From Camillea tinctor (lineage: Eukaryota; Ascomycota; Sordariomycetes; Xylariales; Xylariaceae): a stretch of DNA of 64,000 nucleotides. The position numbers and the translations under genes were made by a program. Below the pieces are notes generated by a model. It worked only from the letters and a program-made list of their open reading frames with translations. It did not search any database and was not told the DNA's origin. Below are positions 48,871 to 53,013 of this stretch, piece after piece. Location: assembly GCA_022578605.1 (NCBI GenBank), contig MU394115.1, positions 124,001 through 188,000 on the forward strand, read 5' to 3'. The stretch's first letter is position 1, and the number at the start of each line of letters is the position of its first letter.

Positions 48871-49827
48871 ATGGCTGAGTTAGGTCCTCTCACCCCGCCT
48901 AGTGTCCCCGGCAGTTTCGACGAGTCCCCATCCCCTCCGGCGCGAAACAGCCTTCCTACGGATACCACATCCGAACATGCCCATGATCATACTTTCAGCA
49001 ACCACTCGTCCTCACCACTAGATCAGACTTGGGCTCACTAGGAGGAGCGCACGTCTGACTTGCACGAGGTCAATGGGCAAGCACATAATGACGATGCTGC
49101 TACGTCTAACGATGAAGACGACTATGGCTTCGACCTGACTACATTTGACCTCGCTATGGAAGAATGGGATGCCATCAATAATTACAGAGGCGTCGATTAT
49201 AGCGACCCAAATGCCGTTCTCGATGCGTTTGACGAGCCCCTGTCCCGACCGACTTTAGGGAGTATTCCCCTCTCCAACTTAGGGAACATCAATGATGTCT
49301 ACGAATTCGGTGGACATCAAGACGCCGATGCTGGCGATTCTCCTGAAGTCCCATGTGATTTTGAGTTTATCGTTGATCCGAATGGGGATGTCTCCGAAAC
49401 TAGATATTTCTCTAGTAGCCATGATGTAAGCATATTCTCAAGAATCTACCACACGTGCCCATTACCACTAATCCCCGTGAACCATTATCCCGCCCGAACA
49501 AGCAAATATTAATATTCTACGGCTGCACAGGGATCATATGTATGGACGGACATGTCCGATAGTGGTGCCGAGTCAGACTTCCTCCAGTTCCCTCCTCATC
49601 AACGCGTTCATTTGGCACAATACTATCTCCCATTCTGTAAGTATCGACGATATGTTTCAGATCACTACAGATCGTACTAATTATATGCACATGTAGACGT
49701 GGAGTTCTTCGGTCTTAGTGCGCATCGTATAGTCATGGAGAACGTGCAGCAGAGCTTTATCCAGCTGCTTTGCGGGGCCTATGATTTTGCTGTACGGCGA
49801 CAGCTTAGGGTAGAGGGTCATCAGTGA
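48871..49827 (+). CDS. Acidic hypothetical protein with in-frame TAG at codon 57 (candidate edited gene 1)
   Basis: Exons 48871-49425, 49531-49636 and 49697-49827 total 264 codons. The ATG opens MAELGPLTPPSVPGSF. After 56 sense codons comes TAG at 49039-49041. The same frame then runs through the rest of exon 1 and through two correctly phased introns (GTAAGC...CACAG and GTAAGT...TGTAG, phases 0 and 1) to TGA. The downstream part is rich in Asp, Glu and Ser (DYGFDLTTFDLAMEEWDAI) and ends in a helical segment (FIQLLCGAYDFAVRRQL). No domain, signal peptide or membrane helix was recognised. Around the TAG it resembles the next gene (SNHS..SPL, then the stop, then E.R..D..E). The intact spliced frame argues against a dead pseudogene. 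If the UAG is edited to UGG, the protein is 263 aa with Trp57. The first Met after the TAG is deep inside, so a downstream start is unlikely to give the whole conserved part. Confidence 0.75.
49023..49058 (+). promoter_or_regulatory. Predicted RNA hairpin with the TAG of gene 1 in its loop
   Basis: The 14-base arms TCAGACTTGGGCTC (49023-49036) and GAGCGCACGTCTGA (49045-49058) form 12 Watson-Crick pairs with two single mismatches. The 8-base loop ACTAGGAG (49037-49044) contains the TAG; the candidate edited A is 49040. Confidence 0.75.
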
Positions 49828-50356
49828 TTTGATCATGTGCTCGGAGAGCCGGGCATGGTACTACAAAAGAAGCACAGGGATGTCTCTGTAGCCCTTTGCA
49901 TTGATATGTCGCTGTCTATATCGTGTAATACTATAAAGTAGCCATATAGATATACCGAAAGTGCTGTTAATGACATCGTTTTATAGATGAATATGTTCTA
50001 TAACGTCTTTGATATTATTTAAATAGCCAAGTGCAATAATCCTAGTCAATATAACTCGAGTTGACATCAGGGTGTTCTCTTCCTAGGCAGCTAGGATATC
50101 AGACCCCACAACTCTGAAGAGTATTCTTGACTTTGAATATTGCCACTACCTTATTCTGTTTCCCCCCATTGCCAGAGGTCATGTGTAAAATGTTTCTTTC
50201 TCACATGTTGACACAATATCTGAGCTTTGACCTCTGTTTGCAAGGTTGTCTCATCTGTATCTTTCTAGCTACTCCTTTCCTGCCATACCATCATTCTGTT
50301 TTCTTTTTCTTCTTCTTCTACCGTTCCATTACATCAGCATCATTCCTACCACAACG
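49828..50356. other. Spacer between trio genes 1 and 2
   Basis: 529 bases that end in a pyrimidine-rich leader (about 50280-50330). They presumably carry the 3' UTR of gene 1 and the promoter of gene 2. Confidence 0.5.
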
Positions 50357-51219
50357 ATGGCTTCCATCAACCTCGACAACTTTCGGTCAAGTACTCTCGC
50401 GGAGCAGATGGAACTCCGTCTCTCCAACCACTCTCCTCTATCCCCACTAGGCCTAGCATATGAGCCATAGGAAGGCCGTATGTTGGATGCTTTTGAAGAT
50501 GACGATAGTGAAGGTGATGACGTCTCATCTTGTGGCGAGGAACCGTTCGACCCAGTGATGTTCAGAGCTAGCGAAGCCGAGCAAGACGAGTTTAAGGATC
50601 TCTTTTCAACCCACCTCTCGTCCAGCACCATCGCGGTCCATAAAGGTGATGCGAGTTATGGTGAGCCTTCAGAAAGCTGCAACTCCAAAAAAGCTGGCTG
50701 TTCTAGTTCTCCAGGAGTCTTCCGACCGAGACCATCATTTGGTAGCTCATGTGCTAGATACACTACCAAGGAGACTGATGGCAGAAACCTGGGCCATATG
50801 AGCATCATCTCGTGCTCACCATCTATTTGGGCCAAGATGGAAGAGGATGTGGGTGACAAATATGCTGATGGCGATCGTTCCTCTGAGGACATCATAGGCG
50901 AGGAATATGATGCCTTAGATGATTTCGTCCAAGGTAGTGATAATGTGAGTAGTGTCCTGTTATATATTTATACTACGTAACATTTACTTTGGCATCAAAG
51001 TCAAGCACTAACTCAGTTGAATGTGTATAGTGCTCGGTGTTGTCCTTTGAATCTGACGAGCATATCGATAACCATGGAGTTACTACTGCGTCGTCTAAGG
51101 TCAGGAGTGGCTCGTTGTTTAGGGTTCCGAGTCTTGATAAGGTAGTCAAGGGGCTTTGTCCAGCAAGCACGCATGCACATCCTCTCTTCACGGTCAAGTA
51201 CGGGAACGTCCTTGATTAG
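50357..51219 (+). CDS. Acidic hypothetical protein with in-frame TAG at codon 38 (candidate edited gene 2)
   Basis: Exons 50357-50944 and 51031-51219 total 259 codons. The ATG opens MASINLDNFRSSTLAEQMEL. TAG at 50468-50470 follows 37 sense codons. The frame then continues uninterrupted for 158 codons, through a phase-0 intron (GTGAGT, CACTAAC branch site, TATAG) and a 62-codon second exon to TAG at 51217. The post-stop region is strongly acidic (EDDDSEGDDVSS), then Ser-rich, with an Asp/Glu-rich exon end (EEYDALDDFVQGSDN). There is no recognised domain or targeting signal. The sequence on both sides of the stop resembles gene 1, suggesting tandem duplication with the stop kept. A UAG-to-UGG change would give 258 aa with Trp38. 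The alternatives are readthrough, or initiation at the Met three codons after the stop (MLDAFED). Confidence 0.75.
50454..50486 (+). promoter_or_regulatory. Predicted RNA hairpin with the TAG of gene 2 in a 7-base loop
   Basis: CTAGCATATGAGCC pairs with GGCCGTATGTTGG (50474-50486), giving 13 pairs including three G-U and one bulged A. The loop is ATAGGAA (50467-50473). The candidate edited A (50469) is the third of seven loop bases and follows T, as A34 follows U33 in an anticodon loop. Confidence 0.7.
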
Positions 51220-51306
51220 CAATATTTGCTAGGTTCACCTTTACAAGATGAGCAAGTTATTATCTTGATGTAAGGTCAGCTCCCTTCATTTTGCTTGAGT
51301 CGACCT

Positions 51307-51351
<45 letters not shown>

Positions 51352-52060
51352 GCACGCACGCACACATACAAGTTCTCATGTATAGCTAGGTAGTTGCTTT
51401 CGGTCAACAGCAGAGCCTTTTTCTTTTCTATGTTCATGTTTCATCACGAGCTCGACGCATTCTCCCCTTCTAGTTTTAGGTTGACTTGACCTATGTCAAT
51501 GGTCTGATGCCCAACACACCTCTTATAAGCCACCTCCGTCTTTAGAGTTCTTTATGGTGGCATCTTGCTAGATGATATCTTGAAGTCGATTATGGTTATA
51601 TGGGCTTGAATATCAGTTTTTTCTCGAGTAAATAATAGCACCTACCTGAATAGTAAAAACAATGTTGGGTCGAAGTGCCTGGCAACAGCATTCTTGTATA
51701 CCTCTAAAGTACATAGATGTACCTACTTCGAAATACATTATGCTTTATCGACACCCTTTCATTGTTGATGGTACCGAGACCCTTCTCATCGTCGTGGCGA
51801 TATGCCTTCTTCTCCACCTTTAACAATAGGCACTCTACGCATTGTTCCCATAGTGCACAAGCACACCACCCTCCCCCACGATATAACCTACATCATTCAA
51901 TGCAAACATTCCTTCCACACACGAGTATTTTATGCCTTTTGGGGTCACTGGCTTTGACCCTTAAATATTCCTTTTCTCCCGCGATATACCATATCACCAA
52001 CTACCTTACGTCCGAATCTTCTGCTACTTGCTCTTTCCTGCGCATCCGACATTCGTGGCA
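51220..52060. other. Spacer between trio genes 2 and 3
   Basis: 841 bases with a CA microsatellite (51310-51367). The 5' leader of gene 3 has a pyrimidine-rich composition from about 51780. No other gene is supported; the ORF at 51717-52154 is in another frame and low-quality. Confidence 0.5.
51310..51367. repeat. Interrupted (CA)n microsatellite
   Basis: CA repeats with short TA and CG interruptions lie between trio genes 2 and 3. Confidence 0.92.
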
Positions 52061-53013
52061 ATGCCATCTGCCAATCCAAATCCTCCCAAGGGTGTTTTTC
52101 ATCCACCGGGAACTACTGAGCCAACAGATACAGAAGCAGCGGAGCAGACGCTAAATCTACCACCTGTTAACCTTCCAATCTTATCTTACAGACGGGCGCG
52201 TGAGCTTTAGGAACCTCACACATCCTCCGCGTTTAAGAGTTATAGTACAGAGGACCCTTTCATGGGCTATTCCCCTGATTTCGCCTCAACTCTCAGAGAG
52301 GCTGAAGAGCATAAGGATCATAGGACTACTGATTACTTGCCCCACTGGCCATTCTTACCCGATGAAGATGAGCAAGGGTTAGAGTTGATCGATTTCGATC
52401 GCATTGACGAGCCGGAACCCCCTTTACCTTCGGTTCCCACCAGCAAGGAGAATACATCTCGTGGCAATGAAGGCGATGGTCCCAGCTTGCCAGACCTCAG
52501 CTTGCTGAACAACAAGAACCTCTCCCGCGCTGGCCTGAAACCAGACCGTCATATAGATAGCGATGCTACTATATCTGTTATTTCCAGTGCCCCGGCCAAT
52601 GAAGACGATGTAAGTAATTACTCTCCCTACTGCTTATTACTACCACCCCCTATACATCCTAACCTATGTTGGGAAATGTGCTACAGTCCCTTTCTACTAA
52701 ACATAACGTATTGTACCCCTACCTATGCATCACAATACCCATTGCCTAAAGAACCCCCCCTGCCTGACAGCATAACCAACCCAGATGCTAACTTAATATG
52801 CTATTGCAGTGGGTTCATGTATCATCACCATCGCCTGGCCAACCCAGTGGCAACCAGGAGGAGAGAAACCGAACACGCACCTTTCAAACAGAGGGAATTC
52901 CAGTCAATCCATTCAGCAGCGATCCCATCCTCCCTCGAATGTCGAATAAAAGAATGGGTTCCCCGATCGAAAGCATATATGATGCCGAGTCTAAGCGCCA
53001 GCGACTGGAATAG
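52061..53013 (+). CDS. Acidic hypothetical protein with in-frame TAG at codon 50 (candidate edited gene 3)
   Basis: Exons 52061-52609 and 52810-53013 total 251 codons. The ATG opens MPSANPNPPKGVFHPPG. TAG at 52208-52210 follows 49 sense codons. The frame stays open for 133 more codons to the exon end, crosses a phase-0 intron of 200 bases (GTAAGT...ATTGCAG), and finishes with a 67-codon exon ending KRQRLE. The region after the stop is acidic (LPDEDEQGLELIDFDRID) and Pro/Ser-rich. The layout matches genes 1 and 2: a short N-terminal piece, TAG followed by GA, an acidic body, and a phase-0 intron directly after an Asp/Asn. Sequence similarity to the other two is weak, so paralogy is suggested rather than shown. 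The basic tail SKRQRLE could be a nuclear signal. UAG-to-UGG would give 250 aa with Trp50. Confidence 0.72.
52200..52219 (+). promoter_or_regulatory. Predicted RNA hairpin with the TAG of gene 3 in its loop
   Basis: GTGAG (52200-52204) pairs perfectly with CTCAC (52215-52219). The 10-base loop CTTTAGGAAC contains the TAG; the candidate edited A is 52209. A few more pairs form outward (GGG 52194-52196 with CCT-type partners 52223-52225, around mismatches). It is the weakest of the three hairpins. Confidence 0.6.

Follow-up and report, generated by a model that had tools for sequence, protein, structure and literature searches.

Can genes that carry an in-frame stop codon close to their start be expressed as full-length proteins, and what might it mean to find three of them side by side? 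The question is raised by a locus in the wood fungus Camillea tinctor, within a stretch of 64,000 nucleotides (nt) corresponding to positions 124001-188000 of contig C65 (GenBank MU394115.1; the genome is 44.7 Mb in 154 contigs) and referred to here as the window. Three consecutive genes in it, which we call g1, g2 and g3, are each interrupted by one TAG codon. An original prediction made from the letters alone assumed a sordariomycete host, correctly, as C. tinctor belongs to the Sordariomycetes and Xylariales, and proposed a tandem gene family that depends on messenger RNA (mRNA) editing. We find it likely that the full-length products of these three adjacent genes depend on adenosine-to-inosine (A-to-I) editing of one UAG each; they are a cluster, and the term family is not supported.

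Three adjacent genes with in-frame TAG codons

All three genes are on the plus strand, and their coordinates and codon counts agree with the predicted layout of an ATG, 37–56 codons, an in-frame TAG and about 200 more codons. g1 (exons 48871-49425, 49531-49636 and 49697-49827) begins with the ATG at 48871 and ends in TGA, giving 264 codons with the internal TAG and final TGA counted. Its in-frame TAG (49039-49041) is codon 57; 56 sense codons precede it, the next codon is GAG, and 206 in-frame codons lie past it. g2 (exons 50357-50944 and 51031-51219; ATG at 50357, final stop TAG) has 259 codons including both TAGs, of which the internal one (50468-50470) is codon 38, with 37 sense codons before it, GAA next, and 220 codons beyond. 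In g3 (exons 52061-52609 and 52810-53013; ATG at 52061, final stop TAG) there are 251 codons, again counting both TAGs, and codon 50 (52208-52210) is the internal TAG, which follows 49 sense codons and precedes GAA and a total of 200 in-frame codons across the intron. The frame is intact through the four GT-AG introns, three of which contain a CTRAY site 20-23 nt before the intron end (the first intron of g1 does not), and the 626 post-TAG codons show no other frame damage. TAG is evidently still functional as a stop, as originally held, because g2 and g3 themselves end in it, and the annotated Camillea g2 protein terminates at the end TAG of g2.

Coding signal flanks each of the three TAGs on both sides. 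With a three-phase Markov score trained on 85 long frames of the genome against non-coding window sequence, the per-codon values in frame are +0.185, +0.143 and +0.078 before the TAGs of g1, g2 and g3, and +0.147, +0.109 and +0.179 after them. The remaining five frames are below zero on both sides, with the sole exception of an antisense value of +0.003 after the TAG of g1, and none of the three forward frames reaches zero in the 40 codons 5′ of each ATG. Among non-coding windows matched in length (37, 49 and 56 codons), 95% are below 0.02, -0.04 and -0.05, and 99% are below 0.22, 0.15 and 0.15, respectively; the pre-TAG segment of g1 is thus above the 99% line, and those of g2 and g3 are above the 95% line only.

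Apart from the internal TAG, the genes have in common the length of exon 1 (185, 196 and 183 codons), a phase-0 first intron and acidic products (isoelectric points of 4.2-4.8). The family of the original prediction is unsupported: BLASTP finds no homology between g1 and g3, hhalign finds none among the three (probability under 1%), and no paralogue turns up elsewhere in the genome. None of the products has a Pfam domain over the cut-off; a DUF3775 match for g3 (E 0.003, 17.9 bits against a cut-off of 27) was set aside.

Sequence context and predicted hairpins of the TAGs

A-to-I editing in fungi is described as favouring hairpin loops, with U at -1 and either A or G at both +1 and +3 (PMC11156358); the account of PMC4817773 adds an enrichment of G at +2 and of purines at +3 and +4. 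The three sites read TAGGAG (g1), TAGGAA (g2) and TAGGAA (g3), so that all have U at -1 and a purine at +1 and +3. The codon following the TAG is G-purine-purine in three of three cases; such codons make up 8.75% of codons here, and three of three are expected by chance with a probability of 6.7e-4.

Each TAG is predicted to be in the loop of a hairpin on the plus strand. In g1 the hairpin spans 49023-49058 with the TAG in an 8-nt loop (49037-49044), and in g2 it spans 50453-50486 and has 13 pairs with the TAG in a 7-nt loop (50467-50473), a shape rather like that of an anticodon arm. The g3 hairpin (52191-52227) is weaker than the other two, with the TAG in its apical loop. Using 30-nt flanks, the same as those in PMC4817773, the ensemble probability that the A is in a hairpin loop is 1.0 for g1, 0.998 for g2 and 0.84 for g3. 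Compared with other TAGs (811 of long frames, or 1,972 of the window on both strands with the three sites included), the combined hairpin P for the three genes ranges from 9e-5 to 4.5e-3 across three window sizes. Synonymous recoding of the 12 codons either side of the TAG gives P values of 0.0025-0.0045 for g1, 0.03-0.13 for g2 and 0.08-0.17 for g3 (combined 0.0008-0.003). Among the 32 TAGs in any frame of the spliced coding sequences (CDS), a set from which closeness to the CDS ends removes the final TAGs of g2 and g3, the three in-frame TAGs score best (-15.8, -15.5 and -9.2, the next being -7.8), with a chance of 2.0e-4. A search of 48-54 kb against Rfam at gathering thresholds gave no match.

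A simple scheme is that unedited mRNA would yield only peptides of 56, 37 and 49 residues, and that A-to-I editing of a single site per gene would change UAG to UGG (Trp) and give the full-length protein. The UAG would be presented in the predicted RNA hairpin, and a tRNA-type deaminase would act on the loop A. Because the stops sit in predicted hairpins of the editable kind, complete proteins are probably produced only while RNA editing is active.

Relatives and comparable stops elsewhere in the genome

The post-TAG proteins of g2 and g3 are conserved in Biscogniauxia, where g3 retains a block from GPSLPDLS to SSAP..ED.W. A 217-residue annotated C. tinctor protein is identical to g2 from Met42; this model and two from Biscogniauxia mediterranea start at that residue, four codons past the TAG, and the Camillea and both B. 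mediterranea sequences do not differ over the 24 residues that begin there. One B. mediterranea model (P0122) fuses exon 1 of g2 to the residue directly after the TAG of g3, and another (P0123) has junctions that differ from these; both seem to be false fusions of g2 and g3, probably made to avoid the TAGs. Because the joined models span both genes, g2 and g3 appear to be neighbours in B. mediterranea too, and the P0122 junction would imply an AG before that codon, most simply the same TAG. For the edited gene CHE1, the annotation faults described are a start placed after the stop and an intron inserted to dodge it (PMC11169179), and those at g2 and g3 in the two species seem typical of edited genes.

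A second candidate edited stop in the genome is in a DNMT5 gene on contig C32, where a TAGG is present at C32:179636-179638 (L070:737-739 in the fetched locus). The frame comprises at least 245 codons, one TAG, and then 1,957 further codons, and its pieces carry a C-5 methylase and a SNF2 domain. They match PDB entry 7r76, labelled there ‘DNA repair protein Rad8’, which we take to be the Cryptococcus DNMT5. In alignments the TAG falls opposite a Trp in the 7r76 chain and opposite Trp in 96 of the 120 relatives listed among 273 found, with both Biscogniauxia species included; by eye, many of the other 24 have a Trp a few columns off through gaps. A null mutation of this single gene is possible. 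In Fusarium, the methyltransferase RID is described as gated by editing (PMC12167651), and DNMT5 raises the possibility that gating of this kind extends to a DNA methyltransferase in C. tinctor.

Comparable stops were sought in 335,829 bases (the window and the fetched loci, overlaps included and rich in kinases), which is <1% of the genome. An initial scan returned 73 rows (38 TAG, 24 TGA and 11 TAA), with many lying antisense to GC-rich genes, and after it the rule was set that the coding score be the best of the six frames on both sides of the stop. This strict scan gives 13 stops (six TAG, four TGA and three TAA). For four of them (g1, g2, g3 and DNMT5), every one a TAGG, inspection by eye suggests no simpler explanation. 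Seven others are introns by eye (window 47341 and 36681, and one each in L021, L025, L041, L050 and L056), and one, in L022, is in a stretch upstream of a start, read as a leader. The last, in L060, is a probable natural gene end that is also TAGG. It belongs to what we take to be a MAP kinase-like gene; the TAGG (L060:1231, minus strand, C58) is followed by 108 open codons scoring 0.26, and a stop-loss editing site is possible there.

Searches among particular gene classes were also made. Among kinases, sought for genes like PUK1, there are 137 matches, 12 of them with a single TAG; ten were inspected and all are splice acceptors or introns by eye. Nine of 452 candidates for MFS were scored, and ten matches have no stop; of 84 Fungal_trans matches one has a single TAG, and a partial examination recognised no edited gene. 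SPO22 and DCP1 have one match each and no stop, and the matched parts of RID-type methylases have none either.

Alternative explanations and known editing systems

Translation could instead begin at the first Met past each TAG (Met95 in g1, Met42 in g2 and Met68 in g3), with the open reading frame before it acting as a leader or uORF. The annotated g2 proteins of Camillea and both B. mediterranea sequences begin in just this way, and the 24 identical residues from Met42 fit it, although a start after the stop is the reported annotation fault for edited CHE1 (PMC11169179). The pre-TAG stretches are coding in the post-TAG frame in all three genes, 37 open codons in g1 and 17 in g3 would be dropped after the TAG, and the exclusive use of TAG and the hairpins would be left unexplained, so that we regard a downstream start as unlikely. 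Splicing is a serious rival because TAG|G at all three sites fits a 3′ acceptor and the inspected kinase TAGs all read as acceptors or introns; the TAGs might accordingly be removed with an unrecognised intron, or g2 and g3 might form one fused transcript, as P0122 does in linking exon 1 of g2 to the residue after the TAG of g3. Removal of the TAGs by splicing had been named at the outset as one outcome that would count against editing, and a scan of canonical sites with donors up to 600 nt upstream finds no in-frame route round them. For g1 and g2, the 600 nt leading up to the TAG contain no GTRNG donor, and the 60 nt preceding each of the three TAGs lack a CTRAY. The one donor at g3 is GTGAGC at 52200, whose sole branch-supported intron (52200-52296, 97 nt) breaks the frame. 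The fused model needs a 1.27-kb intron, and the two B. mediterranea models disagree on the junctions. Splicing as the explanation is, on this evidence, improbable.

A single stop per gene also has the look of early decay, whether by three independent nonsense mutations or by loss of an older start, yet only TAG is used, each time with a G-purine-purine codon next, the 626 codons after the TAGs are otherwise undamaged, and the post-TAG parts of g2 and g3 are conserved across genera; that all three are decaying pseudogenes is very improbable. Translational readthrough of UAG without editing would provide full-length proteins from the same mRNA. Known readthrough contexts are CUA and CARYYA, whereas the next codon here is GAA or GAG, and the stop sits in a hairpin loop rather than before a stem, and we give this explanation hardly any weight.

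Several points weigh against editing. The g3 hairpin alone is not significant (P 0.04-0.17), and the end TAG of g3 scores -10.1 with 17-nt flanks, better than the -9.2 of its internal TAG; with 30-nt flanks, though, this end TAG falls within a stem, and the end TAG of g2 is a stem position as well. Neither is followed by a G-purine-purine codon, and with both added the internal three rank 1, 2 and 4 of 34. The DNMT5 hairpin is no better than under synonymous recoding (P 0.29-0.56). g1 has no relative among 394 candidates from a database rich in Xylariales, and conservation of the TAGs in relatives is deduced from protein models rather than DNA. The kinase, SPO22, DCP1, MFS and Fungal_trans matches, most of them partly examined, yielded no additional gene that was recognised as edited. 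That the UAGs are edited, at which stage and by which enzyme, and whether the trio has a shared role, are inferences from sequence. Set against these are the coding signal on both sides, the exclusive use of TAG, the G-purine-purine codons, the hairpin loops, the Biscogniauxia conservation and the DNMT5 TAG at a Trp position, and on these the editing dependence of the original prediction stands while its gene family does not.

If the trio is edited, the deaminase could be Tad2-Tad3 with Ame1 in fruiting bodies, or one of the OLD type. Ame1 is described as a DUF726 protein (PMC11087585), and DUF726 matches at three loci, L050 (C19), L051 (C8) and L052 (C2), are candidates only; one match has a TAG, at an exon edge. 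OTT_1508 is given as the domain of the OLD editors (PMC12754623). Matches to it (PF14441) are on C2, C17 and C20, two over the cut-off and one weak and partial, with the domain-based deaminase genes at L047:3629-5791 (C2) and L048:4204-5797 (C17). With two such domains in the genome, Tad2-Tad3 is not the sole candidate editor. No zinc-finger gene with a TAG was recognised by eye beside the OLD-type deaminases; the gene next to that in L048 looks, also by eye, like a MYND zinc-finger protein. Tad2-Tad3-Ame1 is tentatively favoured for the trio because known premature-stop-correction (PSC) genes are described as expressed mostly in fruiting bodies (PMC4817773).

The trio resembles the PUK1-like PSC genes of Fusarium graminearum, as described in PMC4817773 and PMC11156358, in the in-frame UAG to UGG change, U at -1, purines at +1 and +3, the hairpin loop, mis-annotation, and, as for the majority of those genes, the lack of a known domain; editing is shown there by RNA-seq and is only predicted here, and the available parts of those accounts contain no tandem cluster. 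OLD-ZAO and CHE1 (PMC12754623, PMC11169179) are similar in their annotation failures and in that production of the full-length protein hinges on a PSC UAG within a hairpin loop, and OLD-type deaminase domains are in the C. tinctor genome too. However, ZAO and CHE1 are C2H2 zinc-finger proteins (PMC12754623, PMC11169179), unlike the products of g1-g3, and ZAO adjoins its deaminase (PMC12754623), whereas C65, the contig of the trio, has no OTT_1508 gene. Our limited search of open-access literature found no PSC gene cluster; single genes gated by editing are known, and three side by side, together with DNMT5, are the new parts. The Neurospora spore killer rfk-1 is comparable in that it is reportedly restricted to a lineage and its mRNA undergoes editing during the sexual phase; it is a single gene, and one for which drive is shown.

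Gating by editing may allow fungi to keep costly proteins hidden up to the sexual stage, and three neighbours with such a lock in common suggest that a whole locus can be gated in this way. More tentatively, and with some doubt, the trio may be one editing-gated module: three young, acidic, lineage-limited proteins, silenced by a shared lock except during the editing stage, whose genes are neighbours because the products work together in the fruiting body, for example in the development of ascospores, in spore killing or in defence against viruses. The trio also offers a compact system for testing whether selection acts on such stops, and similar loci may be overlooked elsewhere because protein models here start after the stops or splice round them.

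The upstream neighbour of the trio, judged by eye, presumably encodes a ferroportin-type transporter, and downstream there is what we take on the same basis to be a cyclin gene. Between g2 and g3 there is a long CA/CACG dinucleotide repeat (window 51304-51375).

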